The notes beneath the pieces were generated by a model. That model was not told where the DNA came from, searched no databases, and saw nothing but the letters and a program-made list of their open reading frames with translations. Of a stretch of 64,000 bases of DNA, positions 36,270 to 64,000 are shown piece after piece. Position numbers and translations under genes: made by a program. Every line of letters starts with the position of its first letter. Position 1 is the first letter of the stretch. Origin of the DNA: Bacteroidales bacterium CF (GTDB lineage: Bacteria > Bacteroidota > Bacteroidia > Bacteroidales > UBA932); assembly GCA_000473305.1 (NCBI GenBank), contig CP006772.1:1426001-1490000 (forward strand), in the 5' to 3' direction.

Positions 36270-36306
36270 ATTATTGTGTTTTTTTATTTTTTCAGTTATA
36301 GAGAGA

Positions 36307-37350: not shown

Positions 37351-37389
37351 AAATAATTCAATAAAAATATGAATATTTTAAAAACAATA

Positions 37390-37417: not shown

Positions 37418-37435
37418 CAATGTATCAGATCCAGC

Positions 37436-37693
37436 CTACTTTTGGCGGTTTTTATCAATAAATTCTGCCATAGTCCTGACAGATTTAAATATCTCCTTGT
37501 TTGCTTTCGGATCTTCCAGACGGATTCCATACTCTCTTTCAAGCAGTATTACCAGCTCCAGAGCATCTATTGAATCCAGACCAAGTCCGTCAACAAAAAG
37601 AGGTGCATCAGTGTCAATATCTTCCGGCTTAACCTCTTCAAGATTGAGGGCCTCTATAATTTGTTGTTTTAGTTTGAGGATTAGTTCTTCCAT
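37436..37693 (-). CDS. Acyl carrier protein (second ACP of the locus)
   Basis: An 85-residue ACP with the phosphopantetheine site DGLGLDSIDALELVILLE (serine in DSI). It is the last gene of the minus-strand locus, after the ABC permease (24-nt gap). Pairing with DarB, the BtrH-like acyltransferase and the exporter suggests it carries an acyl chain for those enzymes rather than for general fatty acid synthesis, but specificity cannot be read from the sequence. Confidence 0.92.
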   Translation of the reverse strand: MEELILKLKQQIIEALNLEEVKPEDIDTDAPLFVDGLGLDSIDALELVILLEREYGIRLEDPKANKEIFKSVRTMAEFIDKNRQK

Positions 37694-37717
37694 AGTATTA
37701 TGCTTTATTTGATATTT

Positions 37718-38989
37718 CTATATATCCATTCTGTATTTGTGATTGTATGCGACTGCAATAATGAAACACAATGCTCCGAACAGGAGAAGTGCTGCACTCT
37801 CCGGCAATATTGCCATCACTCCGGCATCCTTGAGGAAGATATCATAAAAGGCAGATATTCCCCAGTGCATTGGAGATAACAAACTGATTGTACGCATAGT
37901 TTCTGACATAAGGAAAAGGGGAATCCATACACCACCGATTGCAGCCATAATAACGACAGACATTGATCCAAACACCGAGGACTGTTGATAAGTCCTTGCT
38001 ATATTACCTATTGCTATACCGTATCCGATTGCAGCAAAGGCCGATGACAAAGCCAAAAGTCCCAAAGCCGCGAATGAACTTCCAAGGTTGAGCGATTCAA
38101 GACCAAAACAGGGCAGTAAATAGACCCCAATAAGCAACATTATAGCAAATTGAAGCATCGCCACAACCGTATATATGATTGCTTTGCTTAACAGATACTC
38201 AGTATATGAGCAAGGCATTGTAAGTAATCTTGAGAAGCTCCCCTCCTCCCTCTCTTTTATAATGCTGCCTGACAATGAAATAACAATAAAAAAAATTGCA
38301 AATAAAGACCAGGCAGGCACATTGTGCTGTACAGAATTAGGAACAATGTCGTTTCCCTCAAGATGGGCGCTCTTAACCTCTATTCTGACCTGATCTCCTG
38401 AAAAGCTGTTGGAAGATATCGGCACAGGGCTCAGGAGGTTGACCTGCTTGGTAATCTCCTTCATTATATACTCGAATTGTATCTTTTGAGCCTTCTCTTT
38501 AAGAGTGCTCATAACAGTGCTGTTGAATGAGGATTTTGTCGTAGGGTCAATATATACTGTAAAGTCAACAGGGATATGCTCCGTTGTTGTCTCTACACCA
38601 TTGAATGCCGCTGAAACATATTTTGCAACATTTTGTCTGATATCATCAGTCGTATTTTCAGGAATATATATTCCAAGGACGAACCTGCTGGACGCAACAG
38701 CTTTTTCAAGCTGATTTACAGAAGGAACAACCCCTTCCACATCTTGCGAAACCTCAAATATTCCCGTTCTGAATATCTCACTCTCTATAGCTTTCCCCAG
38801 CTCCCCGGTGTCTTTATTGACCAGTAGTATCGGCACCTTTGCATCCCTTACCGAGTTGAGTGTGCTGTCCTGTAAGAGAGACATAAGTATCACAAGCACT
38901 ACCGGCATCAGAAACATAAGCAACATTCCGGCTATATCTCTTACCAGAAGCAACAGGTCCTTATAGAGAAGGTATTTAAGCTTACTCAT
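37718..38989 (-). CDS. ABC-2 type transporter permease
   Basis: A 423-residue permease: one N-terminal transmembrane helix (about 18-38), a large extracytoplasmic domain (about 45-215), then five C-terminal helices (from SLFAIFFIVISLSGSIIKEREEGSFSRLLTMPCS to the end). This is the YhhJ/ABC2_membrane_3 architecture used for export of hydrophobic molecules. Its gene overlaps the ATPase gene by 8 nt. In this locus it probably moves the finished lipid-like pigment or a precursor across the inner membrane. Confidence 0.9.
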   Translation of the reverse strand: MSKLKYLLYKDLLLLVRDIAGMLLMFLMPVVLVILMSLLQDSTLNSVRDAKVPILLVNKDTGELGKAIESEIFRTGIFEVSQDVEGVVPSVNQLEKAVASSRFVLGIYIPENTTDDIRQNVAKYVSAAFNGVETTTEHIPVDFTVYIDPTTKSSFNSTVMSTLKEKAQKIQFEYIMKEITKQVNLLSPVPISSNSFSGDQVRIEVKSAHLEGNDIVPNSVQHNVPAWSLFAIFFIVISLSGSIIKEREEGSFSRLLTMPCSYTEYLLSKAIIYTVVAMLQFAIMLLIGVYLLPCFGLESLNLGSSFAALGLLALSSAFAAIGYGIAIGNIARTYQQSSVFGSMSVVIMAAIGGVWIPLFLMSETMRTISLLSPMHWGISAFYDIFLKDAGVMAILPESAALLLFGALCFIIAVAYNHKYRMDI

Positions 38990-39743
38990 GATAGTCTCTC
39001 ATTTTTTTACCTGTTATAAGCATATAAAGTGATTCCAGGTTCTGTCCGCACTCGTACGCTCTATAAAGCTCCTCCGGTTTTCCTTCGCATATTATATTTC
39101 CGTTGTCCATAAGAGCCACTTCATTACAAATTGCCTCGGCCTCTTCCAGATAATGTGAAATAAACAATATTGTTGTCCCTTCTTTATTGATTTCTACAAG
39201 TTTGTCCAGTATCAGTTTTCTGGACTGAGCATCAACTCCGACGGTGGGTTCATCCAAAATAAGTATTTTCGGAGAGTGAATCATGCCGGCAATAAGGTTT
39301 ATCCTGCGCTTCATCCCACCTGAAAAGTGGTTGATTATAGTATCTTTACTCGATGTAAGGTCAAACAACTCCAGCAACTCCTCCACCCTTTTTCTTAAAA
39401 CAGCACCCCGCATTCCGTATAAACCACCGAAAATCATGAGGTTCTCCTTTGCTGTAAGCGAAGGGAAAAGTGCCAGTTCCTGAGGGACCAAACCTAAATG
39501 AGGTTTAATTTTTTTTAACTCATCTTTCGTTGAATAACCAGCAACATAAACTTCACCCTTATCGAACCTTCTGAGACCGCAAATAATATTTATGGCAGTT
39601 GTTTTTCCGGCACCGTTAGGTGCAAGCAATCCGTAAAGAGAGCCATAGGGTATCTTTAGTGAAAGCCCGTCAAGAGTCGGTTTATCTTTTCCCTTGTATC
39701 TCTTAAACAGATTATTAGTCTCTATGGCATACCTCTTATCCAC
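38982..39743 (-). CDS. ABC transporter ATP-binding protein
   Basis: A 253-residue ATPase with Walker A (GLLAPNGAGKTTAINI), Q-loop (PQELALFPSL), signature FSGGMKRRINL, Walker B ILILDEPTVGVD and the switch His in FISHYLEEAE. It is the partner of the ABC-2 permease that overlaps it, forming an exporter. It overlaps the BtrH-like gene by 8 nt. Confidence 0.95.
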   Translation of the reverse strand: MDKRYAIETNNLFKRYKGKDKPTLDGLSLKIPYGSLYGLLAPNGAGKTTAINIICGLRRFDKGEVYVAGYSTKDELKKIKPHLGLVPQELALFPSLTAKENLMIFGGLYGMRGAVLRKRVEELLELFDLTSSKDTIINHFSGGMKRRINLIAGMIHSPKILILDEPTVGVDAQSRKLILDKLVEINKEGTTILFISHYLEEAEAICNEVALMDNGNIICEGKPEELYRAYECGQNLESLYMLITGKKMRDYHE

Positions 39744-40746
39744 CTTTTACCTCTTGTTCCAGTTTTATAAAAATGTCTCTCTCTCTCTTTGCTATCTCTT
39801 CCAATTTATCTGCTATCTGATCGTATGTCTCAATCTCACCCTCTCTTTGCTTGAAAAATCTGGCAGAGTGATAGGCAAAATCTCTCCACCTGTCTCCCAC
39901 CTCTGTCAGTTCTAAAGAGATATCCTTGAGTTTAGGATTATTAAGTATCAAAGCTGCTTCCTGAAGGAATGCCGAATACATGAATCTGAAACCGGCTCCC
40001 CCGGTACCTATCTCTTCCAGCATCCTGATTACCTGTGCAAGGTTTAGGGCAGCACCCTTTTTACCATATATTCTCTCCCATTTTCTCATTCTGCGGGACA
40101 AATAGGAGATACCTCTGACTCCGAACATCGGGACAGGTATCCTCAACATTCTGTTGCAAGCCTTAAGAATCGCCTTTCTGACCATAGAGGCGTCCAACGG
40201 CTTCAAACCTTTTATGTCGCTTATATAATACATCCTTCCGGATGGAGGGTATGTTCCTTTTGCAAAACGGACAATTCTCAGGGCATTGGATGAGAGTCTG
40301 CATTTCTCGATTACAACCGGGTCTGAAACGACATACTCGTCGCCCTCTTTTCCTATTACACAAATATTGTGGGCATTAAAGTGAAACCTGTACTCCCTTG
40401 GAAAGTAAGGAAGATGATACACTCCGACAAGGACTCCGACCGGCACCCCCTTCAACAATATCTCATCCAGTTTTTCCATGGCAAGCTGCTGATCTCTGAA
40501 TTTATATCGCTTGACCTTTACTCCCAGCAACTTTGTAACTCTTGAAAAAATATCGCCCGGCAAGGGTCTGAAAGATGTAACAGGCATGCCGTGCATCTTA
40601 TAGAATGGCATATGTGAGAAAAAAATTCCCGAACCAAGTCCGAAAATCATAGCTTCACTCATATCAACTCCATAAAACTTCAGCAGATTTCTGACAACAC
40701 CATTCTCGCAATGTCCTGCCGGTTTGTGTTCGAATTCCAATTCCAT
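39736..40746 (-). CDS. BtrH-like acyltransferase (BtrH_N domain)
   Basis: A 336-residue protein whose N-terminal half resembles BtrH, the butirosin enzyme that transfers an acyl group from an ACP to an amine. A papain-like triad is visible: C13 (GHCENGVV), H126 (FNAHNICVIG) and D142 (VVSDPVV). The C-terminal half (about 165-336) is helical and of the type often annotated DUF4872. Placed among DarA/DarB, an ACP and an exporter, it could attach a resorcinol/polyene precursor acyl chain to an acceptor. The acceptor is unknown. Confidence 0.8.
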   Translation of the reverse strand: MELEFEHKPAGHCENGVVRNLLKFYGVDMSEAMIFGLGSGIFFSHMPFYKMHGMPVTSFRPLPGDIFSRVTKLLGVKVKRYKFRDQQLAMEKLDEILLKGVPVGVLVGVYHLPYFPREYRFHFNAHNICVIGKEGDEYVVSDPVVIEKCRLSSNALRIVRFAKGTYPPSGRMYYISDIKGLKPLDASMVRKAILKACNRMLRIPVPMFGVRGISYLSRRMRKWERIYGKKGAALNLAQVIRMLEEIGTGGAGFRFMYSAFLQEAALILNNPKLKDISLELTEVGDRWRDFAYHSARFFKQREGEIETYDQIADKLEEIAKRERDIFIKLEQEVKGG

Positions 40747-40748
40747 TG

Positions 40749-41150
40749 TTAATCCAAAGATATTAGTTGTTCCACAGTTATGTTGAGTCCGGCAGCCAGT
40801 TTTGACAGATCGTCATAACTGAGTTTAAAGAATATTTCAGGCTTGTTGCAGAATCTCTTCACATCTCTCCTGGAAAATCCGGTGTATTGGGCCAGAATTT
40901 CAGGTGTCATTACCAATCTGCTTAAATGGTAAGATAAAGGGCTCTGTCGGCCTGAAATCACCTCTTGGCGGATCTTTTCGGACTCCTCGTTTATCGCACT
41001 CCAGGCAAAATTTATTGCATCATTTTTGGGATCCCAGCCAACACTAATCACCTCCTTGTAGTTACCATCCTCATCAAGAGCATAGCAAACATCTCTTACC
41101 GGGGTGCCTTTGAGAATCTCCCCATCCTGCGGCACTTCATTGATTTTCAT
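40749..41150 (-). CDS. Hypothetical protein between darB and the btrH-like gene
   Basis: A 133-residue soluble protein from the ATG at 41150 (MKINEVPQDG); the frame extends to a TTG at 41159. The first half contains VCYALDEDGNYKEVISVGWDPKNDAINFAW. The second half (LVMTPEILAQYTGFSRRDVKRFCNKPEIFFKL, then LSKLAAGLNITVEQL) looks like a helix-turn-helix of XRE-like arrangement. It might be a small regulator or an adaptor for the neighbouring enzymes. No family is recognised with certainty. Gaps of 2 nt on each side show it is an integral member of the operon. Confidence 0.7.
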   Translation of the reverse strand: MKINEVPQDGEILKGTPVRDVCYALDEDGNYKEVISVGWDPKNDAINFAWSAINEESEKIRQEVISGRQSPLSYHLSRLVMTPEILAQYTGFSRRDVKRFCNKPEIFFKLSYDDLSKLAAGLNITVEQLISLD

Positions 41151-41152
41151 GA

Positions 41153-42292
41153 TCAGCAAACAGTTAGGTATACATATGCATAAGAGAAATGGGCACTTTC
41201 AGGAACCATGAAAAGTATATTTTGTCCCTTTTTAAGATCTTTCGTCCGTGCCAGTTCATCAAGCATCAGGAAGGCAGAAGCGGCGGCAACATTTCCTACA
41301 TATGGAAGATTCAGGAACCACTTCTCGGCCGGAATCCTGCAATCAATATCATTCAGCAATCTCTCTATTCTGATTTTAAAATACATAGATGACAAGTGAG
41401 GAAGAAACCAGTCAATATCGTCCACCTTTATATTGTGTTTTTTGATAAGTTCCAGGAAGAACTTTCCACCCATCTTAACAATATTCTCTCCCAGAAGCTT
41501 TGTATCCTGTTTAATTGAAAACAGAGTCCTGCTTGCCCACTCCTCTTCAGGGAAATGTGTCCAGCCCTTCAGGTTTCCGTTCTGATCATAATCTGCCCCG
41601 GCGTACATGCATGTCGGTAATGTATTTGCATAAGAGGTGAGTTCAATCCAGTTTATCTTAAAAGATAGTCCCTCCTTCACCGGCTCTCTCTCCAGTCTGA
41701 CAGCACCTGCACCGTCAGATAACATGAATCTGAGGAAGTCCTTTTCGAATGCTATTATTGGATCGTCTTTCAGTTTTTGAAGATCTTCATACTCTTTTTT
41801 AAAGTAATTTGACCGCATCCAGGCAGAAAGCCTCTCGGAAGCCAGTGCAATTGCATTTTTCTTATCTCCGGACGCGAGTGACAGGTAGGCATATTTCAAG
41901 GCATGCATCCCACTGCAGCAAGATCCTGCGAACGAGACAACCTCCGTATGGTTTGTCCCCCCCATCTCACCATGTATCTGAACAGCATGCGACGGCATTA
42001 TCATCTCCTGAGATGTTGTACCGGCTGCCAGTAACTCCAGGTTATCCACATTAAGATTCTCATCGTAAAGCTTCTCAATAGCCTTAACTGCCATATCGTA
42101 GGCAGAATGAGTTATGTTACCACTCTTGTCGAGTGCATAATAGCGCTCCTTGATGCCATTGTTACGTAAAATAATGTCCTTTGCCCTTGAAGGTTTTCCC
42201 CCAATCATACCGATGTATTGCTCTATCTCATCATTCTGGACCGGACTGTTAGGAAGGAAGGTGGAAGTTTTAGTAATATATACAGGATACAT
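41153..42292 (-). CDS. darB: DarB-like beta-ketoacyl-ACP synthase III
   Basis: A 379-residue thiolase-fold ketosynthase of the FabH/DarB type. The catalytic cysteine is C126 (SFAGSCCSGMHALKYA), with the partner His in WFLPHLSSMYFKIR and Asn in PYVGNVAAASAF. DarB condenses two beta-ketoacyl chains into a cyclohexanedione that DarA aromatises to a 2,5-dialkylresorcinol, the alcohol half of flexirubin-type pigments. It lies directly downstream of the darA-like gene (11-nt gap), the usual order. Confidence 0.88.
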   Translation of the reverse strand: MYPVYITKTSTFLPNSPVQNDEIEQYIGMIGGKPSRAKDIILRNNGIKERYYALDKSGNITHSAYDMAVKAIEKLYDENLNVDNLELLAAGTTSQEMIMPSHAVQIHGEMGGTNHTEVVSFAGSCCSGMHALKYAYLSLASGDKKNAIALASERLSAWMRSNYFKKEYEDLQKLKDDPIIAFEKDFLRFMLSDGAGAVRLEREPVKEGLSFKINWIELTSYANTLPTCMYAGADYDQNGNLKGWTHFPEEEWASRTLFSIKQDTKLLGENIVKMGGKFFLELIKKHNIKVDDIDWFLPHLSSMYFKIRIERLLNDIDCRIPAEKWFLNLPYVGNVAAASAFLMLDELARTKDLKKGQNILFMVPESAHFSYAYVYLTVC

Positions 42293-42303
42293 GTTCAGTT
42301 AAG

Positions 42304-43224
42304 TTAATCATACAAATATAGATATTTTTTCCTTATCTGGCTTAGACTCTTTCTTCTAAGGGGGAAGAGCAGCCACAGGACAAAAGAACCCACAGGTGAG
42401 ATTACAAAAAGCACAAACATCAGATACCAACTGAATAGTTTTAGTCTCCGGGCCCTGGCAGGATCGTTGAACCCTCCTTTTTTCAATACAAACCCGGACC
42501 AGATTCCGAACATCTTATGCCCTACTCTCTCTATCTGATAGAGGCTGTAATGGAAAACAACACCGCCTTTTTCTACAATTCTCTTCTGAAGTGTATTGAA
42601 CTCATTCTCTCTCAACGACTTTAAAATTTCAGGGGCAATATTGGAAACATTATCTATATCCTCCTGCGAAACACCCGCTTCCGGAAGATACTTTGTCTTC
42701 TCTTTTATTCCGTCTATCAGCCACCTGAAAATAGTAAGGACACTGACAAGGTTATTATGTCTGTCCTCAAGAGTTATATTTCCTACCCAGTTGGAATTGG
42801 ACTTTATCAGGTAGTTGTTAATATTATCATGGCAGGAAACCCACATATTCCTGGTTCCTACGACAGTAATGACCTTTTTGCCGTTGAGATACTCCTTAGC
42901 AGCAGGGTGCTGAAGAAATGATGATACAGGTATTGACGGCGAGAGAAACCATGGTTGCAGTCCTATTACAACAAGGTCTGCGTCAGACACATCCGAATAG
43001 TCCATGCTCTTTATCTCACAAGGAATACCTTGCCTGCACTCGGGAAATGCCTGATAAAAAGCGTCGGAGGTCCATGGAAATGGGAAAGGTGTAACCGGCT
43101 CTATAGTTTTATAAATAACAGTGCACCCCTCGTTTTCCAGGGGTTTGAGCAAACTCCTGAGTATGTTCAGGAGTTGTCCTGTCTGTGTGTAGTAAAACAC
43201 AGCAATCTTGTAATTATTATCCAT
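42304..43224 (-). CDS. darA: DarA-like dialkylresorcinol-condensing enzyme
   Basis: A 306-residue protein with an N-terminal flavodoxin-like fold (KIAVFYYTQTGQLLNILRSLLKPL, VVIGLQPWFLSPSIPVSSFL, GKKVITVVGTRNMWVSC). A C-terminal pair of hydrophobic helices (about 268-292) should place it at the membrane. It matches the DarA family, which aromatises the DarB product. It overlaps the upstream LolA-like gene by 8 nt. Confidence 0.88.
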   Translation of the reverse strand: MDNNYKIAVFYYTQTGQLLNILRSLLKPLENEGCTVIYKTIEPVTPFPFPWTSDAFYQAFPECRQGIPCEIKSMDYSDVSDADLVVIGLQPWFLSPSIPVSSFLQHPAAKEYLNGKKVITVVGTRNMWVSCHDNINNYLIKSNSNWVGNITLEDRHNNLVSVLTIFRWLIDGIKEKTKYLPEAGVSQEDIDNVSNIAPEILKSLRENEFNTLQKRIVEKGGVVFHYSLYQIERVGHKMFGIWSGFVLKKGGFNDPARARRLKLFSWYLMFVLFVISPVGSFVLWLLFPLRRKSLSQIRKKYLYLYD

Positions 43225-43834
43225 TTGTCACTATGTTATTGAATGAATAAAATGTTGTATCCTCTGATCTCTCATAAAGTATAAGCTCTCTGAGAGAGTA
43301 GTCTTCAAGACAAAAGTGCAATTCAATCATTGTATATGGATTATCAGCGCTTCTCTTTAGATTCGTTATTGTAACAACATGAAAATCAGCAGTTGATTTA
43401 TATATCACCTTGTATTTTGCAGGAAGCTCCCGAAGCTTTCCACTCACACATGCCTCCATAATTACGGCAAGTTCTGCCAGAGATCTCTGTTTAGCAAAGT
43501 CATATGTTGTTGTCTTTGTCGGTGTGGATATCCGGAGGTTGCTGTTTGTCATTATTATGCTCATCACTTTTGGAGTTGCATAGTCAAATCTTATGTCAAC
43601 ACCTTTTTTGTATTGGAATTTCCCCTTAGAGACAACCTTTGTATCGAGCAACTTCACATACTTAGTCTGAGTAAAGGATGCCCTTAGGGTACTGACTTCT
43701 GAAGAACGTCTCGACAGCTCGGAATAGAAGAGATCTTCCTTACTGTCAGCATAAAGCAGAGAAAGAAAAAGTGAAGAGAGTAGAGTGACTAGTGAAAAGC
43801 GTAGAGTGAATAGTGAAAAGTGGATGTGTCTCAT
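43217..43834 (-). CDS. LolA-like outer-membrane lipoprotein carrier protein (second copy)
   Basis: A 205-residue exported protein with a signal peptide (about 1-30) and the LolA fold pattern (LRASFTQTKYVKLLDTKVVSKGKFQYKKGVDIRFDYATPKVMSIIMTNSNL). LolA-like proteins in aryl-polyene loci are thought to ferry the lipidic pigment or an intermediate across the periplasm. It differs from the other copy at 54038-54703, so the two may have separate cargoes or form a relay. The signal-peptide coding region contains a 21-bp tandem repeat. Confidence 0.85.
   Translation of the reverse strand: MRHIHFSLFTLRFSLVTLLSSLFLSLLYADSKEDLFYSELSRRSSEVSTLRASFTQTKYVKLLDTKVVSKGKFQYKKGVDIRFDYATPKVMSIIMTNSNLRISTPTKTTTYDFAKQRSLAELAVIMEACVSGKLRELPAKYKVIYKSTADFHVVTITNLKRSADNPYTMIELHFCLEDYSLRELILYERSEDTTFYSFNNIVTNG
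43780..43821. repeat. Two imperfect 21-bp tandem copies within the signal-peptide region
   Basis: 43780-43800 and 43801-43821 are the same 21 bases except at two positions. In the minus-strand gene they encode two rounds of a seven-residue hydrophobic unit (FSLFTLR / FSLVTLL). The repeat lengthens the signal peptide's core in frame. Confidence 0.8.
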
Positions 43835-45126
43835 CTGAGGTCTATAAATTTAACAGGTTTTCTGCTTGTTTGAGGGAAGATTGATCCTGCAATCAGTTCT
43901 ATTGGTTCGAATGAAATTTCAGGGGCAACTCTTATCTTGGCACGGAAGAGGTCCTTGATCTCCTTCTCGAAAGTCTCATTTGGATTGGCTGCCCCGATTT
44001 TTATAAGTATTCCGTCTGTTCCAAGAGTATTTGTGTATACCTGAACCTGGTAATTGACAACGCCCTGAATATTATCCAAAATATCATACAAAGCCGAAGG
44101 ATATAATGTCGTCCCCTTATATTTAATCATCTGCCCCTTCCGACCGACAATCGGGCTTAGTCGGACGCTGTTTCTCCCGCAGAGGCATTTTTCCTCAATC
44201 ATGTGACACAAATCTCCTGTCTTAAATCTCAAAAGAGGCATTCCTTCTACTCCCAATGTTGTTATAACAAGCTCTCCCACCTCTCCGGGGTTGACCGGAT
44301 TCTCGTTTTCATCCAAAAGTTCAAGGATTATAAGATCCGGATGATGATGGCCCCCGCATTTGAATTCACACTCAGTGAAGGAACTCTGCATCTCTGTTGA
44401 TGCATAGGTTGAATGCAGTGATAATTCCGGCCACTTCCCGGTTATTTTATTAGTGAGGGTGCTTGGAGAGAGATCGGCATTTCTCAGAGGCTCTCCAATA
44501 CACACCGCGCGTTTTAGAGAGATCAACTCAATGTCAATTCCGTGCTCTTCTGCATATTCTGCCAGCTTAACCAAAAAAGAGGGCACCACTATGCATGAAT
44601 CGGGTCTCTCTTTCAAGATTGAACTCCACTGCAACTCCGGGATACCGTTGCCAACCCTTATAACTCCCATCCCGAGTTTCCTGGCTCCCATAAAATATGC
44701 TAGTCCGGCCATAAAGCGACGATCCATTGTAGTCATTATCTGCATGACCTCCCCTTTTTTGCATCCGGCCTCTAGAAATGAGGTTGCATCATTGTATGCA
44801 AGGCGGTCAAGGTCATTGTCCGTCAACATGAATGTCACCGGATCTCCTAAAGTTCCCGAAGTGGTCACATAGTCCATAATCTGGTCCTTTGGTACACAAA
44901 GAAAATCAAGATTAAACACAGAGACATCCCTTTTCGTTGTTGTCGGCAGCATTTTAAGATCTTCAATTGTTTTAATTGATCCCGGATCTATTCCTTTTTC
45001 ACGGAACATTCTACTGTAGAAGGGAGAATTTACTGCAATATAATTGATTGTCTCTCTTAAAGATTTTTCCTGGAACGCTTTTATCTCATCCCTTGATTTA
45101 AATGACAACTCAGAATCTCGCATCAT
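43831..45126 (-). CDS. PaaK-like adenylate-forming acyl/aryl-CoA ligase
   Basis: A 431-residue protein with the start at 45126; an upstream in-frame ATG at 45186 would overlap the preceding gene by 53 nt. It follows the phenylacetate-CoA ligase pattern: FYSRMFREKGIDPGSIKTIEDL, the phosphate loop VTTSGTLGDPVTFML, YASTEM, RFKTGDLC and the C-terminal CLCGRNSVRLSPIVGRKGQMIKYKG with cysteines. It probably activates an aromatic or fatty acid, for example a 4-hydroxycinnamate-type starter, as a CoA or ACP ester for polyene synthesis. Substrate not determinable. Confidence 0.85.
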   Translation of the reverse strand: MMRDSELSFKSRDEIKAFQEKSLRETINYIAVNSPFYSRMFREKGIDPGSIKTIEDLKMLPTTTKRDVSVFNLDFLCVPKDQIMDYVTTSGTLGDPVTFMLTDNDLDRLAYNDATSFLEAGCKKGEVMQIMTTMDRRFMAGLAYFMGARKLGMGVIRVGNGIPELQWSSILKERPDSCIVVPSFLVKLAEYAEEHGIDIELISLKRAVCIGEPLRNADLSPSTLTNKITGKWPELSLHSTYASTEMQSSFTECEFKCGGHHHPDLIILELLDENENPVNPGEVGELVITTLGVEGMPLLRFKTGDLCHMIEEKCLCGRNSVRLSPIVGRKGQMIKYKGTTLYPSALYDILDNIQGVVNYQVQVYTNTLGTDGILIKIGAANPNETFEKEIKDLFRAKIRVAPEISFEPIELIAGSIFPQTSRKPVKFIDLR

Positions 45127-45133
45127 ATCAATA

Positions 45134-56258: not shown

Positions 56259-56262
56259 AATA

Positions 56263-57474
56263 TCAGCCTTTATATGAACCGTAAATCAGTGTCGTACAAT
56301 TGCCCCCGAACCCGAACGAGTTCTCGAGCACATAATCCATAGAGCAATCAGTTATAAGATCTTTTACAGGGATAACGGCAACATCCGACATCTCTTCTTT
56401 AAAATGGAGGTTAGGCCAAATATATCCATGCTTTAGCGACAGGAGAGAGAATACGCTCTCTACACCTCCTGCCGCTGCAAGAGTATGACCCGTATATCCC
56501 TTTGTGGAGCTGAAAGGTGGAAGATTGTTCCCGAAAATTCTGAGCAATGCGGCCCCCTCTGATGAATCATTATTAGGAGTACCTGTCCCGTGGGCATTAA
56601 CATAGCTGATATCTGCAGGCTTCAGGCCACTTGATTCAAGAGCCCCGAACATTGCAAGATAGGCCCCCTCCCCATGGGATGATGAGGCTGTCTGGTGAAA
56701 GGCATCGTTTGCATTTGCATAGCCGCATATTTTACCATAAACATTCCTGTGGCCAAGGTCTGCTCTTTGAAGCACCACATAACCCGCCCCCTCGCCAAGG
56801 TTCAAACCGGCCCTTGTGTCGTCAAAAGGTCTGCACCAGTTTTTATCAAGTATGCCCAGAGAGTGAAATCCGTTAACCGTAAATCTGGAGAGAGCGTCAG
56901 TACCTCCTGCAACAACAACGTCAAGCATACCAAGTTTTATCATTCTTGCTCCCAACATTATTGCATTGTTTGCTGAAGAACAAGCTGTACTTACTGTAGA
57001 TACAAAATCGTCAGCTTTGAGATAATCAGCAATTTTCTCTGTAGATGCTCCACAATCATGACCCAGAAGATCTCTCAGCTTACCTTTGCTTTTATCCAAC
57101 CTATACTCCTTATAAAAGTTCTCACTGACATCCATCCCTCCTACAGATGTGGCTGATATCAGGCCTATTTTCAACTCAGACCTCTCAGCGGCACTCAACC
57201 CCGGGAATCCGGCATCTTCGTATGCCTCTTTGGCGGCCAGAAGTCCGAGGAGAGTTGTCCTCGAATAGACCTTGTCTTGAGCTAGTGACAGAATATCGGC
57301 AATCTGTGAATTTGACAGACCAACTTCTCCCACAACAACTTCATGATTTGAGGTAAAGAGTGTTAAAGGGGCAATTCCGCTCCTGGAAGCTATCAAAGCA
57401 TCAAGATTCTCCCCGACACCTCTGCCCAAAGCTGTTACCACTCCCAAACCGGTTATTATGACATCATTATACAT
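56263..57474 (-). CDS. Beta-ketoacyl-ACP synthase (catalytic partner of the CLF-like protein)
   Basis: A 403-residue KAS-II-fold enzyme from the ATG at 57474 (a GTG directly upstream overlaps the preceding stop). The triad is complete: C165 (VSTACSSANNAIM), His in YVNAHGTGTPNNDSSEG and His in TKGYTGHTLAAAGGVES. It probably forms a heterodimer with the cysteine-less protein encoded next and elongates the polyene. It is one of three complete ketosynthases in the locus. Confidence 0.93.
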   Translation of the reverse strand: MYNDVIITGLGVVTALGRGVGENLDALIASRSGIAPLTLFTSNHEVVVGEVGLSNSQIADILSLAQDKVYSRTTLLGLLAAKEAYEDAGFPGLSAAERSELKIGLISATSVGGMDVSENFYKEYRLDKSKGKLRDLLGHDCGASTEKIADYLKADDFVSTVSTACSSANNAIMLGARMIKLGMLDVVVAGGTDALSRFTVNGFHSLGILDKNWCRPFDDTRAGLNLGEGAGYVVLQRADLGHRNVYGKICGYANANDAFHQTASSSHGEGAYLAMFGALESSGLKPADISYVNAHGTGTPNNDSSEGAALLRIFGNNLPPFSSTKGYTGHTLAAAGGVESVFSLLSLKHGYIWPNLHFKEEMSDVAVIPVKDLITDCSMDYVLENSFGFGGNCTTLIYGSYKG

Positions 57475-57476
57475 CA

Positions 57477-59177
57477 CTATACTTTTTTATATAACCCAAT
57501 ATTAAGATCATATTTCTCGCCTATAAGGTCGCACCATCCGGCTACAACCAGCTCCATGCCGGAGAGAGATGCGTTACGTAAAAGAATCTCTGTGGCATTT
57601 ATCTTTTCAGAAGGATTGAATACGAAAAATGTATTTTCACCTTTAAATTTGTTTTTTATGCAGATTTCACCCAGAACTACATTTGGTAAGGTGTAGACGA
57701 ATATTGCCGGGCTGGCCTTAAGGTCATCCTCCGCGCCTATAGCAGCAACATGTCTGATATCTGATGCAAGTGATGAAGAGGTATTGCCGAAAAACAGACC
57801 TCGCTTTTCAGGCAGGATGTCAGAAAACTCCGGATTATCTTTTAATAATTTAAGGACTCCTATGTAACCGAGTTTTGAGAGATCGTCCATCTTGAAAAAT
57901 TTAAGATCTGTATTTTCCAGCCTTCTATTCCAATCTCTGATAATATCGTGAAAACCATCTGTTCCTGAGAGTGAAAACCTTGAGAGTTCTCTCCAGTTAG
58001 CCGGCTGGTCATATCTGCTGTTTCCTGAAACAGAATCAAAGGCATATATAACTGCAGCATTGCAACCTCCGAACCCGGACGCAGTCTTTATACACCTTTT
58101 CAGCACTCTTGACTCATGACTGGCATTGACCTTTATCTCCATAGGAACACCGCTCTGGGTATAACCTTTAGTGCCGAATAGCATACTGTTTTTCATTTGC
58201 CAGAAGCATCCTATGCTCTCAATTACTCCTGATGCTCCAAGTGTGTGGCCCCAGTATGGTTTCAGACTTTGTACCGCTACACCGCTCAGTCCTGCAAGAT
58301 GAATAGCTTTTGCCTCCATCTCATCGTTATACAGAGTAGCCGTACCATGTGCATTTATGAAATCTATCTCTTCTGCTTTTATACCTGCAATAGTTATTGA
58401 TCTGCTCATGGCCTCAGCTAAGCCGTCTCCTGTCCGGGAAGGTGCTGAAAGATGGTTGGCATCATTGCTTATGGCTCCCCCTTCAACCACTATCGGATCT
58501 TCTTCTGAAACAATAGCTCTGTCTCCTGTCAGGACTATCACACCTACAGCCTCTCCCAAAGTAAGGCCGTCTCTTTTTGTATCATAAGGAATGCAAGGGC
58601 CTGTACTTATAGAGTGAAAAGATTGGAATCCTGTCACAACAAATCTTGAAAGCAGATCTGCTCCGACAATTATAGCATGCTTACAATAACCCGACGAGAT
58701 AAGTCTTGAAGCTGAAACTACAGCATTAACTCCTGATATACAGGCATTAGAAACTACAAGTGGCTCTCTCTTCAGTTTGAAATAATTTGCTGTCACCTTT
58801 GCCGTATGGTTAAGGAACACTCTGCTGTCAAGAATTTCCCTCCCTGATTCCAGAAATGTGACATCTCCCTTTGTAGTAGAGAAAATCAACTGTGTCTCTT
58901 TCAAAAAATCCTCGTCGACAAAATCTTTCAACAAATTCAATGCTTGTTGGACTGAGAATATCGACCTTCTCTCAAGAGTGGATAAATCGGGATCAGTATG
59001 CTCCCCAAATATTTTTGAAGCATACATTGGTTTACAGAAAAGCGAAGCCTCTTCCACCAACTTAATTCCTGACTTATAATCAGTTATAGCTTTCATATTC
59101 TCTTCTGTATCCAGACCTAAGGGTGAAGAGAGAGAATATGATGCAACAAAAACCTTATTTACTCCTTTTCTAACCAT
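57477..59177 (-). CDS. Ketosynthase with an added C-terminal KS-like domain
   Basis: A 566-residue protein. Residues about 8-395 are a complete KAS-II-type ketosynthase: C146 (VVSNACISGVNAVV), His in INAHGTATLYNDEME, His in YWGHTLGASGVIES, and the C-terminal SGFGGCNAAVIYA. Residues about 405-566 form an extra domain with GLFFGNTSSSLASDIRHV and NVVLGEICIKNKFKGENTFFV. This resembles the N-terminal half of a KS without cysteine. The extension may mimic a chain-length factor within one chain. It overlaps the thioesterase gene by 19 nt. Confidence 0.87.
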   Translation of the reverse strand: MVRKGVNKVFVASYSLSSPLGLDTEENMKAITDYKSGIKLVEEASLFCKPMYASKIFGEHTDPDLSTLERRSIFSVQQALNLLKDFVDEDFLKETQLIFSTTKGDVTFLESGREILDSRVFLNHTAKVTANYFKLKREPLVVSNACISGVNAVVSASRLISSGYCKHAIIVGADLLSRFVVTGFQSFHSISTGPCIPYDTKRDGLTLGEAVGVIVLTGDRAIVSEEDPIVVEGGAISNDANHLSAPSRTGDGLAEAMSRSITIAGIKAEEIDFINAHGTATLYNDEMEAKAIHLAGLSGVAVQSLKPYWGHTLGASGVIESIGCFWQMKNSMLFGTKGYTQSGVPMEIKVNASHESRVLKRCIKTASGFGGCNAAVIYAFDSVSGNSRYDQPANWRELSRFSLSGTDGFHDIIRDWNRRLENTDLKFFKMDDLSKLGYIGVLKLLKDNPEFSDILPEKRGLFFGNTSSSLASDIRHVAAIGAEDDLKASPAIFVYTLPNVVLGEICIKNKFKGENTFFVFNPSEKINATEILLRNASLSGMELVVAGWCDLIGEKYDLNIGLYKKV

Positions 59178-59629
59178 TTTTTTTGCCAGTTAAGGTAAAA
59201 ATCAGGGTTAACAAGCATCAGCTCTCCCTGAGTATCCAAAAAGACCTGTATTGAAGACCCTTCAGCAACAAGCAGATTATCAGACTCTCTATAAATTCTG
59301 AACTCAAAAATAATTTTTGCTGCAGGTGTATATATATATTTTGTCTCAATAATTGCTGTATCGCCATATATAAGAGGGTACTTGTAACTGATATGAATAT
59401 CTACAACAGGAGCGGTAAAACCGGAATTATAAATATCGAGATATCCAAGTCCCGGATAATCCAGACCGAATGACTCCCTGCCATCCTCCATATATTTTAC
59501 ATACTCCCCGTGCCATACAATCTTCAAAGAATCAACCTCGTTAAACCGGACTTTGATAGTACATCTGTTAACAAGCTGCATGTCTGAAGAGTACTGTTTT
59601 CTCTTTTGCATATTAAATTTTTTACTCAT
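59159..59629 (-). CDS. Acyl-CoA thioesterase, 4HBT/YbgC type hot-dog protein
   Basis: A 156-residue protein of the 4-hydroxybenzoyl-CoA thioesterase family. It has the motif VRFNEVDSLKIVWHGEYVKYMEDGRE (Asp and the His-Tyr helix), followed by YPLIYGDTAIIETKYIY. It likely releases or transfers an acyl chain from CoA or ACP in the pathway. The gene starts within the end of the dehydratase-like gene (8-nt overlap). Confidence 0.88.
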   Translation of the reverse strand: MSKKFNMQKRKQYSSDMQLVNRCTIKVRFNEVDSLKIVWHGEYVKYMEDGRESFGLDYPGLGYLDIYNSGFTAPVVDIHISYKYPLIYGDTAIIETKYIYTPAAKIIFEFRIYRESDNLLVAEGSSIQVFLDTQGELMLVNPDFYLNWQKKWLEKE

Positions 59630-60065
59630 TTTCCTGAAGGAAGATTTTTAATTCACACTCTGCCACGATTTGGTCTTCACACTCCACTTTTGCCGAGACC
59701 AGAGATATACCCTGGAACTTCTGTATCTCTGTAATTGTGGTATTCAGCTTTTTCCCCACTTCAGGCAACATTCTGATTTTCATCTTACTGACTGCACCTA
59801 TAAAACCTTTAGGGACAGAGGAACCTCTTGCGATGAAGTCAACTCCTGCCGAGACCGCCGCAGATTGTGCCATATGTTCAATGAGACCTGACTCAGAGAA
59901 CAGATTGCCGTCGGTCAATACATTTCCATCTCTTACTGTAAGCCCGGTGAAAGAAGACAATTCCCTCTTTCCGTAATAACTGTCAACCATAACAAAGGGA
60001 CACCTTTGCGGAATGTACTCCAGTAGCTCATCGCCTGATATCAAGGCTTTCTCAAATATTCCCAT
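59622..60065 (-). CDS. ApeP-type hot-dog dehydratase-like protein lacking the catalytic His
   Basis: A 147-residue hot-dog protein. The helix motif has E63 in LIEHMAQSAAV, equivalent to EAMAQ of FabZ, but the preceding HFPG loop is absent (NLFSESG instead), so the catalytic His is missing. The 124-residue protein at 53160-53534 has the reverse set. The two may form a heterodimer with one composite site, as inferred for the ApeI/ApeP pair of aryl-polyene systems. It overlaps the radical SAM gene by 25 nt. Confidence 0.8.
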   Translation of the reverse strand: MGIFEKALISGDELLEYIPQRCPFVMVDSYYGKRELSSFTGLTVRDGNVLTDGNLFSESGLIEHMAQSAAVSAGVDFIARGSSVPKGFIGAVSKMKIRMLPEVGKKLNTTITEIQKFQGISLVSAKVECEDQIVAECELKIFLQENE

Positions 60066-61420
60066 ATCAACCCCTTTTTCTTTTTGGTTGTTCTCATATA
60101 GTCGAGTTGTCCGAAGAGCGGATCATCCGGGAAAATCCAGGCTTTTCCGGTCTCCTCTGCCAATTTACGGCACAGCTCCAGATCAAATCCCTTCTCTATA
60201 TAGTAAGTGGGTTCCAGCAGAGTGTCACTCTCCGAAACAACACCCATATCAATTGCAATTCTGTGCAATGGCGTACCGGGATATATCCTCATACCAATAT
60301 ATGGAAAAAATACTGAAAAGCGAATTTTTTTAGAATTCTCCATTGTCTCTCTCAAAGTACGTTCACTCTCTCCCAAACCACCCAAAATCAGAAAATGGGC
60401 ATAAAAAATATTGTGTTTGAGACACCTTTCTGAATTCAGCAAAACATCCTCAAAAGAGAAATTTTTACCGTATCTGTGCATCTGTTCCGTACAGAGGGAC
60501 TCTGTTCCGAACTCTATGTGCTTCAATCCGGATTGTTTGAAAAGTTCAAGGAGTTCGTCGGTAAGATTGTGAGGAGAAAAATATGCACCCCAGTTTATCT
60601 TAACACCGCTTTTTATTATCTTTTCAGCCAGCTCAACATTGTAACTGTTATGTATATTGAATACAGAATCAGTGAAGAATACATAGTTTATACCCTTATC
60701 CCTGTTCAGTCTTGCCAAAGTATCAACTATAAGGTCTGTATCAAGAGTCCTTACTTTGCGTCCGTCTATTATTGGATAGGAACAGTAAATGCAGTTGTAA
60801 CAACATCCTCTTTTTGTCTGGATATTCAACATGCCGCTGTGCTCCCAGTAGAAATCAGAAAGAGTCTCATTAAATGAGAGTTCCAGTGATTTCAGATAAT
60901 TTGAGTGCTCTTTAATTTTCCCCTCTTCGCCGTTTCCCTTGATAAGTCCCTCAATCCCGTCAACATTTTCATCTCTGTCCAGCCTCTCCAGAAGCAATCT
61001 CAGACTCTCCTCCCCCTCGCCTGCTATACCGTAATCGGGTTTAAGAATTGACATCAGTACCTCAGGGAATATAGAGAAGCCTGCTCCTCCGAGAATTATG
61101 ACCGAACTAGAATTTTCCCTTATACAGTCAACTATCTCTTTATATCCGGGAATAAAACTTGTTCTGTCCAGGGAGTTTGCTCCGTCAATATTTCTCAGAG
61201 AGACTCCTACATAATCGAAATTTCCGCTCTTCATCAGCTCTGCCAAACCACTAATAGTTAACAGATTCATATCCGCCATCGATATCTCGAGATCAGGCAT
61301 ATGCCCGGAAAGATATGTGTGTAAATAGGATATACCTATCGGATAGACCGGATACGGATCTGCCAGCCTGTTCGCAGATACCAATAATAACTTCCTACCT
61401 TTCATAATTCCAAAAATCAA
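60041..61420 (-). CDS. B12-binding-domain radical SAM protein
   Basis: A 459-residue protein (alternative ATG at 61405). The N-terminal region (about 8-140) has a Rossmann-like cobalamin-binding pattern (LLLVSANRLADPYPVYPIGISYLHTYL, VGVSLRN, VIILGGAGFSIFPE) without the DxHxxG motif. The radical SAM domain has C206-xxx-C210-xx-C213 (KRGCCYNCIYCSYP), then LIVDTLARLNRDKGINYVFFTDSVFN and HIEFGTESLC. Such enzymes methylate unactivated carbons or perform rearrangements. The gene lies between an acyltransferase and a dehydratase-like gene with overlaps of about 25 nt on both sides, so it belongs to the pathway. Confidence 0.9.
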   Translation of the reverse strand: MIFGIMKGRKLLLVSANRLADPYPVYPIGISYLHTYLSGHMPDLEISMADMNLLTISGLAELMKSGNFDYVGVSLRNIDGANSLDRTSFIPGYKEIVDCIRENSSSVIILGGAGFSIFPEVLMSILKPDYGIAGEGEESLRLLLERLDRDENVDGIEGLIKGNGEEGKIKEHSNYLKSLELSFNETLSDFYWEHSGMLNIQTKRGCCYNCIYCSYPIIDGRKVRTLDTDLIVDTLARLNRDKGINYVFFTDSVFNIHNSYNVELAEKIIKSGVKINWGAYFSPHNLTDELLELFKQSGLKHIEFGTESLCTEQMHRYGKNFSFEDVLLNSERCLKHNIFYAHFLILGGLGESERTLRETMENSKKIRFSVFFPYIGMRIYPGTPLHRIAIDMGVVSESDTLLEPTYYIEKGFDLELCRKLAEETGKAWIFPDDPLFGQLDYMRTTKKKKGLIWEYLRKP

Positions 61421-62300
61421 AATAGTTATACCACTGCTCAGGATACTCTCTTACCCTTTCCGAGAGAAGAGCTACATACTCCTCAATAAGCAAAGTCTCC
61501 TTTTTCTTCTCTTTACTTCCGTCTGTATAGTCTGAAAGAATAAAATCGAACTTGTATCTTTTGTAACCTATATGCTCGGCAAAATAGAAGACAACGGGAA
61601 CATTCATTCTCGCTGCCAGCACAAAAGGTCCTAGAGGAAAAGAGGCCTTCTTTTCCATAAAATCCATATCCTTATGCTTATCACTCCTGCTTAGCCTGTC
61701 TCCCTGTATCGACACATACTCCCCCTTTGCCAAAGCATCCCTTATTTTAAAAATATAGTCAAGCGAATCTCCTTCAATGGGGATTATGCCAAAACTATCA
61801 ATGCTTTTATTGACCTCAAGGATCTTTTTAATGCTCTGATACTCCTGATCCATCATCAGGACATTCATCCGCTTGTTATACTTGCCGAAAAAAGGAGCTC
61901 CAATCTCCCAGTTACCGAAGTGAGCCCCGATAATTATGACTCCCTGAGTACTGTTCAAAACACTCTTAACACCCTCCGGTTCTGCAAAGTCAAACCGGTA
62001 CTCGTCATACTTTCCCTGATTTACAGCCACCTTATCGATCAAGGCCCTTCCAAGCGAGTAGAAGTTTTTGTATACTAATATTAATGATTTTAGATACCCG
62101 TATTTGAGTATCTTTCTTGAGAATTTCCATATGGAACGCGTTGCAGACGGGGCAAAAGGGATAAAATAGATGACGACAAGAGAGAGAAGACAATAAGCGG
62201 TTCTAACTCCCAGACCCTTTATAATCTTTATGAAAATAAGGTATCCGAGTAAGCCCCCTCTTGATTTTCCGCTCCAACTTCTTGTTTCATTTTGATCCAT
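61395..62300 (-). CDS. LpxL/HtrB-like lysophospholipid acyltransferase
   Basis: A 301-residue membrane-associated acyltransferase of the LABLAPT/LpxL family. An N-terminal hydrophobic segment (about 25-48) is followed by the HxxxxE motif VIIGAHFGNWE (His near residue 125), PIEGDSLDYIF and SIQGDRLSRSD, with a substrate-binding loop. It likely transfers an acyl or polyene chain from the ACP encoded just upstream (14-nt overlap) to a lipid or glycolipid acceptor. Confidence 0.9.
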   Translation of the reverse strand: MDQNETRSWSGKSRGGLLGYLIFIKIIKGLGVRTAYCLLSLVVIYFIPFAPSATRSIWKFSRKILKYGYLKSLILVYKNFYSLGRALIDKVAVNQGKYDEYRFDFAEPEGVKSVLNSTQGVIIIGAHFGNWEIGAPFFGKYNKRMNVLMMDQEYQSIKKILEVNKSIDSFGIIPIEGDSLDYIFKIRDALAKGEYVSIQGDRLSRSDKHKDMDFMEKKASFPLGPFVLAARMNVPVVFYFAEHIGYKRYKFDFILSDYTDGSKEKKKETLLIEEYVALLSERVREYPEQWYNYFDFWNYER

Positions 62301-62538
62301 CCATTCTGGAATTAATGAACTGATAAAAATCCATGAAGGTTTTTATCTCTGCAAAATCCTTCGCTTTGACAGTAAAGCCGAAATTGTGCTCAATAAGCAC
62401 AACCATGTCAACCAGGTCAAGACTGTCAAGATCCAAAGTGTCCATCAACATTGCATCAGGCTTGATTATCGCAGGGTCTACCTCAAACTCCTCAGCAAGG
62501 ACTCTGTTAATTTTTTCAATTAGTTCAGGTTCTATCAT
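62287..62538 (-). CDS. Acyl carrier protein (first ACP of the locus)
   Basis: An 83-residue ACP with the phosphopantetheine serine in DTLDLDSLDLVDMVVLIE. It is the pathway carrier for polyene elongation, lying between a ketosynthase and an acyltransferase. It differs from the ACP at 37436-37693, so the locus holds two dedicated carriers. Confidence 0.93.
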   Translation of the reverse strand: MIEPELIEKINRVLAEEFEVDPAIIKPDAMLMDTLDLDSLDLVDMVVLIEHNFGFTVKAKDFAEIKTFMDFYQFINSRMDGSK

Positions 62539-62543
62539 AGTAT

Positions 62544-63761
62544 CTATAACTTCTTAATAATTAATGTTGAGTTAGTTCCTCCAAAGCCAAATGAATTTGA
62601 GAGGCATATATCGAAAGGTAATCTCTCACATTTGTTGTTAATATTCAACTTTGCAGAGGCCTCGTCCGGTTTTTCAAAATTTATTGTAGGTGCAATAAAC
62701 GAGTTTTGCATCATAATGATTGAGTAAATCACCTCACTTGCACCGGCCATCCACATCTCGTGGCCTGTCATACTCTTTGTAGAGCCAACGAAGGGTCTAT
62801 GATCTCCAAAGACTTCCGAAATCGCCATAGCCTCATTAAAATCACCCACCGGGGTAGATGTTGCATGTGCATTTACATACCTGATCTGATCAAGTGTAAC
62901 GTCACTGTTATTAATGGCCATCAGGATTGATCTTTTTGGCCCGTCAACATTAGGAACAGAAATATGATCTCCATTTGATGAAAAGCCGTATGATTTTATC
63001 TCCGCGAAAATAGGTGCCCCTCTTCTAACAGCAGACTCATAACTCTCAAGAATCAACGTTGCTGCCCCTCCACTCGGAACAAGTCCGTCCCTGTCTGCGT
63101 CAAAAGGTCTGGAGGCCTCAGTTGGTGAAGAGTTCCTCATAGAAAAGGCGCTTAATCCGTCAAAGCTGCCTACAGCATAGGGATTAACCTCCTGTGCGCC
63201 TCCACAGACAATACAGTCCTGAAGTCCCGATTGAATCATCATGAATCCCATCCCTATTGCATGAGATCCGCTGGCACAAGCTCCTGCTATTGTAAGATTT
63301 ATGCCTTTCAATTTAAATATCACTGAAAGGTTCATCGTTACCGACGAATTCATCGATTGGAAAACTGAGCCTGACCCGATAAGAGTCGTGTTTTTCTTCT
63401 CTCTGAGAATGTCTACCCCCTCTATTACTGCAAGTGCACTGCTGTCATTTCCATATAATATTCCGACCTCATTTTTGGCCAGAAAATCACTGTCAATCTT
63501 AGCCTGTTCCATTGCCCATGATGTAGCCAGATATGCATAGGCTGCCTCCTGAGACATACAAAGCCTCTTTCTTCTGTCCAGTACATTGTTAAGATTAGGC
63601 TCAGGCAAACTTCCTGTAAGGAACGATCTGAACCCCAACTCCTCTCTCAAAGGATCTGCAATAATGCCGGATTTGCCCTTCATGAGAGAATCCCTCACGG
63701 TATCAAGGTCTTGTCCGATGCAAGAGTATATACCCATTCCTGTTATAACAACTCTCTTCAT
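62544..63761 (-). CDS. Beta-ketoacyl-ACP synthase (KAS II type)
   Basis: A 405-residue ketosynthase from the ATG at 63761 (MKRVVITGMGIYSC). The frame stays open to 63914, but that would overlap fabG. It contains the triad C162 (TIAGACASGSHAIG), His in VNAHATSTPVGDFNEA and His in TKSMTGHEMWMAGASE. It probably starts or elongates the polyene chain with the ACP encoded 5 nt downstream. It has no appended domain, unlike the one at 57477. Confidence 0.93.
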   Translation of the reverse strand: MKRVVITGMGIYSCIGQDLDTVRDSLMKGKSGIIADPLREELGFRSFLTGSLPEPNLNNVLDRRKRLCMSQEAAYAYLATSWAMEQAKIDSDFLAKNEVGILYGNDSSALAVIEGVDILREKKNTTLIGSGSVFQSMNSSVTMNLSVIFKLKGINLTIAGACASGSHAIGMGFMMIQSGLQDCIVCGGAQEVNPYAVGSFDGLSAFSMRNSSPTEASRPFDADRDGLVPSGGAATLILESYESAVRRGAPIFAEIKSYGFSSNGDHISVPNVDGPKRSILMAINNSDVTLDQIRYVNAHATSTPVGDFNEAMAISEVFGDHRPFVGSTKSMTGHEMWMAGASEVIYSIIMMQNSFIAPTINFEKPDEASAKLNINNKCERLPFDICLSNSFGFGGTNSTLIIKKL

Positions 63762-63765
63762 ATTT

Positions 63766-64000
63766 CTATGTATAAAGTCCTCCGTTAATAGAGATAACCT
63801 CTCCGGTAATATAAGAGGAATCCCCGGAAGCCAGAAATCCAACCAGTGATGCGACCTCTTCAGGTGTCCCGAACCTTCCGGCGGGAATTTGCTGTTTAAG
63901 TGTAACCTGATCAAGATCCTTAGTCATATCTGTATTTATAAAACCAGGAGCTACAGCATTCACGGTCACCCCTTTCTTTGCAACTTCCTGGGCAAGCGCC
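63766..64000 (-). CDS. fabG: 3-oxoacyl-ACP reductase (FabG type), C-terminal part; gene runs off the window
   Basis: The frame enters from the right edge and gives about 78 residues of a short-chain dehydrogenase: ALAQEVAKKGVTVNAVAPGFINTDM, GRFGTPEEVASLVGFLASGDSSYITGEVISINGG at the C-terminus. The catalytic YxxxK lies upstream of the visible part. It provides the keto-reduction step of polyene elongation, 4 nt before the ketosynthase gene. Confidence 0.92.
   Translation of the reverse strand, partial: ALAQEVAKKGVTVNAVAPGFINTDMTKDLDQVTLKQQIPAGRFGTPEEVASLVGFLASGDSSYITGEVISINGGLYT

Follow-up and report, generated by a model that had tools for sequence, protein, structure and literature searches.

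The described systems closest to the locus considered here are the flexirubin clusters of C. pinensis and Flavobacterium johnsoniae, which, as far as the available C. pinensis text goes, hold FlxA, FlxY, DarA/DarB, several ketosynthases, reductases, dehydratases and thioesterases; the C. pinensis cluster also has a deacetylase, an acyltransferase, LolA, a glycosyltransferase and an exporter (PMC3992019). According to the same text, tyrosine ammonia-lyase activity was demonstrated for C. pinensis FlxA and 4-coumarate-CoA ligase activity for FlxY; the aryl ring of the pigment carries one methionine-derived methyl group, thought to lie ortho to the phenol. A further likeness is to the fatty-acid clusters proposed to make ladderanes in anammox bacteria, which in the available part of their description combine phytoene-desaturase-like, several FabF, acyl carrier protein (ACP) and deacetylase-like genes with a B12 radical S-adenosylmethionine (SAM) gene, Kuste2803, put forward as a candidate for cyclisation (PMC2649909). 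The locus itself lies in a 64,000-nucleotide stretch of Bacteroidales bacterium CF (the window; contig CP006772.1, positions 1,426,001 to 1,490,000), whose genome forms a single contig of 2,657,245 bases. By its sequence it is a flexirubin-type biosynthetic operon with an apparently complete gene set, predicted to direct pigment production, and we consider it probable that a cobalamin-type radical SAM C-methylase here takes the place of FlxJ, through a non-orthologous replacement that has recurred. The flexirubin operon is already known; the novelty lies in a radical SAM gene in the position of FlxJ, recurrent among relatives. A literature search found no publication pairing flexirubin with radical SAM, most subscription journals being outside the search, and the papers listed by a search for TIGR04072 and FlxJ were unrelated, with no description of this operon version among them.

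A preliminary description of the window had recognized a 26.5 kb resorcinol/aryl-polyene (flexirubin) locus of 27 co-directional minus-strand genes that overlap or are separated by no more than 24 nt. The layout of open reading frames (ORFs) bears out this gene run, with 27 consecutive minus-strand ORFs from 37436 to the window edge, and the extent proved too short: flanking DNA takes the operon from 37436 to 66016, giving 28 genes over ~28.6 kb. The remainder of FlxB and the whole of FlxA were found just outside the window, followed by a divergent TldD gene; these two genes make the operon one of flexirubin type, which strengthens the original call. Curated NCBIfam cut-offs are passed by FlxA, FlxB, FlxY, DarH, LolB2, the DarG family and the StlD/DarB subfamily; scores against LolA2 and against the narrower models for DarB and DarG stay below the respective cut-offs. 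The gene names first proposed stand by Pfam and NCBIfam matches except for DarA, for which neither database gave a match. The putative DarA is named from its place beside DarB and from a predicted flavodoxin-like model (mean predicted local distance difference test, pLDDT, 75) with a WrbA/flavodoxin-like N-terminus bearing the motif YYTQTGQ, the C-terminal part being helical; this predicted fold suggests a step in resorcinol formation dependent on flavin mononucleotide.

Set against the C. pinensis and F. johnsoniae clusters as the available text describes them, the window genes form one operon, with DarG, DarH and the ATP-binding cassette (ABC) genes at the 3′ end and ACP2 last, no FlxJ, and a TIGR04072 radical SAM gene. 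The difference can be located by comparison with an FlxJ-type operon of the same order (G238, L080-L081), in which 20 of the window operon genes recur at 21-67% identity, 19 of them in the same order and ACP2 being the one out of order. Unlike the window, G238 has FlxJ (NF053543) between LpxAT and FabZa, and the stretch fetched contains no Dar or ABC genes. Eighteen FlxY loci, picked partly for presence of the radical SAM gene, were mapped with the operon proteins and share a broadly common order, FlxA-FlxB-KS_a-ACP1-LpxAT-[slot]-FabZa-TE-KS_c-ACP2-KS_b-... (KS, ketosynthase; TE, thioesterase), with insertions in some loci; the window operon departs from it in having ACP2 at the 3′ end. Downstream of LpxAT, the slot is occupied by the radical SAM gene in 10 of the 18 loci (in G347 DarA-DarB intervene before FabZa) and by a methyltransferase of 361-365 aa in three others (G238, G267, G353). 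Those of G238 and G353 pass the NF053543 FlxJ model, and the G267 protein shares 68% identity with its G238 counterpart. FlxJ lies two genes upstream of the slot, between KS_a and ACP1, in G530, G429, G346 and G479, and occupies the slot on another contig (L097) in G462.

Three samples were searched: 247 genomes from across the phylum, 295 genomes of the same order, and the best 80 of at least 508 relatives in named genomes. At least 15 of the 80 named loci lie on contigs whose lengths also occur in the order sample, so the sets are not independent, and relatives below the cut-off (L005, L006, L054 and L055 among them) were left out of the counts. In the phylum-wide sample the radical SAM gene passed the cut-off in the source genome alone (3/247 at E ≤ 1e-40), a scarcity probably due to the few genomes of the window's order. 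Within the order it was over the cut-off in 28/295 genomes, and the idea that the gene is unique to the source genome was rejected on this count and on the relatives in named genomes. The nearest of the best 80 is 96% identical and comes from Bacteroidales bacterium isolate STD2_69. For the 28 same-order loci, flanks of up to 1.5 kb contained FabZa in 26, LpxAT in 21 and at least one of the two in 27, the exception being G249 (L051); in seven carriers where FlxY was not found, the gene still adjoins FabZa. Among the best 80 named loci the exact order LpxAT-radical SAM-FabZa occurs in 59, whereas in four no gene of the operon lies within 400 bases on either side.

FlxY was found in 63 of the 295 same-order genomes and FlxJ in 43 (protein search, E ≤ 1e-20). 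Among the 63 with FlxY, 20 carry only the radical SAM gene, 37 only FlxJ, one both and five neither. Twenty-one FlxY genomes thus carry the radical SAM gene, and FlxJ is present in 37 of the 42 that do not. The Fisher p for this exclusion is 7e-11, which is too small as it stands, the genomes being related and many assemblies incomplete. The source genome (G000) gave no match to the FlxJ protein or to NF053543 at E 1e-20, and an NF053543 search found no FlxJ in 27 of the 28 radical SAM genomes. The exception, G527 (548 bits, cut-off 560), has its FlxJ on a separate contig from the radical SAM gene and without operon neighbours (L119). Bacteroides ihuae is an example of an FlxJ-type species in which the NF053543 cut-off is passed. 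FlxJ was likewise found in none of the 80 named radical SAM loci, in stretches of about 4 to 21 kb.

The exchange appears to have happened several times. From 138 loci (28 + 80 with the radical SAM gene, 30 with FlxJ) 105 usable LpxAT sequences were obtained (80% coverage, no stop), which gave 94 distinct rows, 72 from radical SAM loci and 22 from FlxJ loci. On the resulting tree, in which several rows sit on long branches, the slot occupant changes eight times (bootstrap 7-8), at least five of these changes being forced by well-supported branches, against a shuffled mean of 20; an earlier quick tree gave seven changes, three of them forced. Two families contain both types: f144, with the radical SAM gene in G347 and FlxJ in G531 and G446, and f116, with the radical SAM gene in G422 and G514 and FlxJ in G319. 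Divergence of the radical SAM protein is correlated with that of LpxAT (72 loci, Mantel r 0.84, 0/999 permutations), and since the two track each other the enzyme seems to be mostly inherited with the operon between swaps. This correlation also bears on the reading of the locus as an ordinary flexirubin operon in which the radical SAM gene is a passenger and FlxJ was lost independently. The operon is otherwise standard, as such a reading would have it, and FlxJ is optional outside the order; a passenger would nevertheless hardly keep the same slot in 59 of the best 80 named loci and diverge in step with LpxAT, and we regard this explanation as highly improbable.

The enzyme passes the curated cut-off of TIGR04072 (rSAM_ladder_B12), and its CxxxCxxC motif (Cys206/Cys210/Cys213) is invariant in 14/14 aligned sequences. 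The genome encodes three other proteins with a B12-binding domain (open frames of 1206, 711 and 270 aa). Its closest solved structure by sequence is TsrM (6wte/6wtf; 1.4e-22, ~21% identity), annotated as a cobalamin-dependent radical SAM tryptophan C2-methyltransferase; TsrM is more than 100 residues longer and belongs to another pathway. It is also the best fold match for the predicted model (1.8e-23, template modelling score 0.65 by query; mean pLDDT 79, with low confidence near the cluster loop), and the next matches include MgmA, OxsB, AprD4 and TokK. The nearest solved structure to FlxJ is 3dp7, a methyltransferase without a function name, followed by SibL, the nearest named one, a C-methyltransferase that acts on a hydroxylated aromatic ring. 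Because the two enzymes share a slot and exclude one another, resemble TsrM and SibL respectively, and the C. pinensis ring is methylated, we read both as C-methylases of the aryl head. The reaction of the radical SAM enzyme is thus predicted from the replacement of FlxJ and from likeness to TsrM.

By analogy with the C. pinensis enzymes, FlxA would convert tyrosine to 4-coumarate and FlxY would activate it. KS_a, KS_b and KS_c, with the ACPs, FlxB, FabZ-like dehydratases and the thioesterase, would build the aryl-polyene; DarA and DarB would produce the dialkylresorcinol; DarH or the C45 protein would join the two, and the LolA, LolB, MMPL and ABC proteins would put the ester into the envelope. 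The radical SAM enzyme would take a methyl group from SAM and transfer it, by way of methylcobalamin, to a carbon, most likely of the 4-hydroxyphenyl head, and FlxJ would do the same job, aryl-head C-methylation, by ordinary SAM chemistry.

The site of methylation could differ between the two enzymes. Radical SAM methylases are able to reach unreactive carbons, and if this one acted on another ring carbon or on the polyene chain, the resulting pigments might be incompatible or redundant, which would fit the exclusion and the common slot equally well. The ortho pattern is the sole flexirubin substitution observed so far, in a study that did not cover operons of the radical SAM type (PMC3992019). 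Repeated swaps in otherwise matching operons are simplest, however, if the downstream enzymes meet the same intermediate, and we think a different position unlikely. Chemistry other than methylation, such as a ring or chain rearrangement or the polyene cyclisation proposed for ladderanes, is suggested by the family name, by OxsB among the fold matches and by the Kuenenia clusters proposed for ladderanes, with their B12 radical SAM, phytoene-desaturase-like, deacetylase-like and divergent FabF genes (PMC2649909, in its available part). Such chemistry gives no account of why FlxJ is missing where the radical SAM gene is present, and the link to Kuste2803 runs through the family name alone, the anammox clusters differing in this comparison from the window operon with its FlxA and resorcinol genes. 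Moreover, no ladderane is known to us from Bacteroidota, although no search aimed at this was made, and we give this explanation very little credence. Were the TIGR04072 reaction to go beyond that of FlxJ, by methylation of an unreactive carbon or by a ladderane-like cyclisation, this widespread type of operon would make an undescribed class of flexirubin-like lipid, with the same chemistry in the unsolved step of anammox ladderane synthesis; we see only a slim chance of this.

Several points weigh against replacement of one ring methylase by another. The most serious concerns the class I methyltransferase domain in the large MMPL fusion protein: operons of either kind keep this protein, and it could itself methylate the ring. 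The methylase roles of TIGR04072 and FlxJ are predicted only, and OxsB and AprD4, which share the TsrM-like fold, are not methylases. The B12-binding domain match is borderline (PF02310, 32.4 bits against a cut-off of 32.1), and a genome-wide PF02310 search did not list the radical SAM gene. FlxJ often lies one or two genes off the slot, and of 30 FlxJ loci examined out of 43, 25 have operon neighbours and five have none. Neither enzyme was found in five of the 63 FlxY genomes (G264, G328, G359, G374, G519). Outside the order, 14 of 18 FlxY genomes of the same class lack FlxJ and none has the radical SAM gene, so the FlxJ step is dispensable there, and the FlxJ proteins of the other four, like that of G527, fall under the curated cut-off. 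Finally, searches of one genome of the same genus and two of the same family found none of FlxY, the radical SAM gene and FlxJ, so the trait is patchy. An empty-site comparison with these three genomes was uninformative (TldD neighbour in 2/3, the other flank protein in 0/3).

The preliminary description had also proposed that several added genes mark a product decorated differently from described flexirubins. Only the radical SAM enzyme supports that part of the proposal, and it takes the place of FlxJ instead of extending an already full set by one step. The BtrH-like acyltransferase is the NCBIfam DarH; a polysaccharide deacetylase is already present in the C. pinensis cluster, according to the available text (Schoner et al, 2014; PMC3992019); the second ACP is a core gene in a changed position, with a 58-71% identical ACP beside KS_b/KS_c in 17 of the 18 mapped loci (for the eighteenth, G462, the fetched stretch did not include that part of the operon); C45 is present in 11 of the 18; and DarG/DarH with both ABC genes recur in 30 of the best 80 named loci. 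These five were therefore rejected as marks of an unusual product, being standard or recurrent in relatives. No solved structure is related by sequence to the C45 protein. Two operon subtypes were seen, with C45 and the deacetylase together in 11/18 loci and neither found in 7/18 (G462 partial), six of these seven carrying two CrtI-like genes rather than one. The slot swap is independent of this variation, both occupants occurring in both backgrounds.

Some further variants of the B12 radical SAM genes were observed. In G444 (L035:574-2844) LpxAT and the radical SAM protein share one open frame of ~760-780 aa, resembling a gene fusion or a missing stop codon, by which the two functions would be linked, and the radical SAM gene of L033 (G402:C391) contains one internal TAA stop. 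A second, distinct B12-binding/radical SAM protein of ~430 aa occurs in eight loci, next to FlxY/CrtI or close to a second DarH-ACP pair (G429, L085:4818-6125; G342, L060:101-1378; G530, G346, G462, G527, G442 and G444); those of G429 and G342 were scanned and gave weak TIGR04013/HpnJ matches.

The features of the operon are collected in the table. Its largest intergenic gap is 24 nt, and among the 27 junctions between its 28 genes 20 show overlaps of 1-53 nt; the sole long overlap, 149 nt between KS_a and FlxB, vanishes with the ATG start given for KS_a. The single terminator placed earlier at 37390-37417 corresponds to a 14-pair hairpin with a T-rich tail. Because a simple scan for hairpins with T-tails gave two sites in 2 kb against 1.3 in shuffled DNA, the terminator call rests on stem length and position. 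The G+C content of the locus (41.5%) is close to that of the flanks on either side (40.9%), and there is therefore no compositional sign of recent transfer. Just beyond the terminator, at 35062-37304 on the same strand, are genes for a sigma-70-family factor of ECF-like type (36813-37304), an unknown protein, a DUF4252 protein and a protein that weakly matches an outer-membrane barrel.

Table. Features of the flexirubin-type operon in window coordinates; the operon reads 5′→3′ on the minus strand, from high to low coordinates.
Feature	Position	Strand	Evidence
Terminator-like hairpin, operon 3′ end	37388..37419	-	stem + T-rich tail
Acyl carrier protein ACP2; adjoins KS_b/KS_c in other loci	37436..37693	-	PF00550, NF006617
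ABC-2 permease	37718..38989	-	PF12698
ABC ATPase	38982..39743	-	PF00005
DarH, BtrH-related acyltransferase	39736..40746	-	NF053550 419 bits, cut-off 300
DarG-family protein	40749..41159	-	NF053536 116 bits, cut-off 70; flexirubin_DarG 122 vs 170, below cut-off
DarB/StlD-type ketosynthase	41153..42292	-	NF005293 527 bits, cut-off 450; NF053539 537 vs 550; StlD 5gk0 1.8e-106
Putative DarA, WrbA/flavodoxin-like N-terminal fold	42304..43224	-	no family match
LolA2-like carrier	43217..43834	-	PF03548; NF053544 117 bits, cut-off 125 (below)
FlxY, 4-coumarate-CoA ligase	43831..45186	-	NF053551 675 bits, cut-off 520
C45 autoproteolytic acyltransferase/hydrolase	45134..46702	-	NF040521 224 bits, cut-off 85
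CrtI/CrtD-like flavin oxidoreductase	46699..48162	-	PF01593; NCBIfam matches under cut-offs
MMPL exporter-acyltransferase-class I methyltransferase fusion	48155..52015	-	PF03176, PF01553, PF13847
GT2-DUF2062	52012..53166	-	PF00535, PF09835
Hot-dog dehydratase FabZb	53160..53534	-	PF07977
LolB2	53509..54063	-	NF053540 71.7 bits, cut-off 60
LolA-like carrier	54038..54703	-	PF03548
Polysaccharide deacetylase family protein	54700..55362	-	PF01522
Short ketosynthase-like protein	55359..56258	-	PF13723
Ketosynthase KS_b	56263..57477	-	PF00109/PF02801
Ketosynthase-like KS_c, 566 aa	57477..59177	-	PF02801
4HBT thioesterase	59159..59629	-	PF13279
FabZa dehydratase, 3′ neighbour of slot	59622..60065	-	no Pfam match at E 0.01; NF000582 E 2e-7, below cut-off
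Slot occupant: B12-binding/radical SAM enzyme, Cys206-x3-Cys210-x2-Cys213	60041..61420	-	TIGR04072 388.7 bits, cut-off 360
LpxAT, LpxL-like acyltransferase, 5′ neighbour of slot	61395..62300	-	PF03279
Acyl carrier protein ACP1	62287..62538	-	PF00550
Ketosynthase KS_a, ATG start at 63761	62544..63761	-	domain match + start correction
FlxB, short-chain dehydrogenase/reductase (SDR), 3′ part in window	63766..64000 (continues to 64494)	-	NF053542 396 bits, cut-off 340
FlxA, tyrosine ammonia-lyase (TAL), outside window	64496..66016	-	NF053541 828 bits, cut-off 700

FlxY-type flexirubin genes are common in Bacteroidales, at 63 of the 295 sampled genomes. The radical SAM-type operon was also seen in Flammeovirga (F. 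aprica ATCC 23126 and sp. SJP92; L207, L209), of the family Flammeovirgaceae, which we take to lie outside Bacteroidales. Hosts with strain names include F. aprica ATCC 23126 (L209) and Alistipes sp. Marseille-P5061 (L159). TIGR04072 was named in NCBIfam after its ladderane/lipid context and not after a reaction, and the repeated swap with FlxJ predicts one. If the enzyme is indeed a methylase acting on ACP-bound aryl-polyenes, the ring-forming role proposed for the B12 radical SAM protein of ladderane clusters would need to be re-examined.

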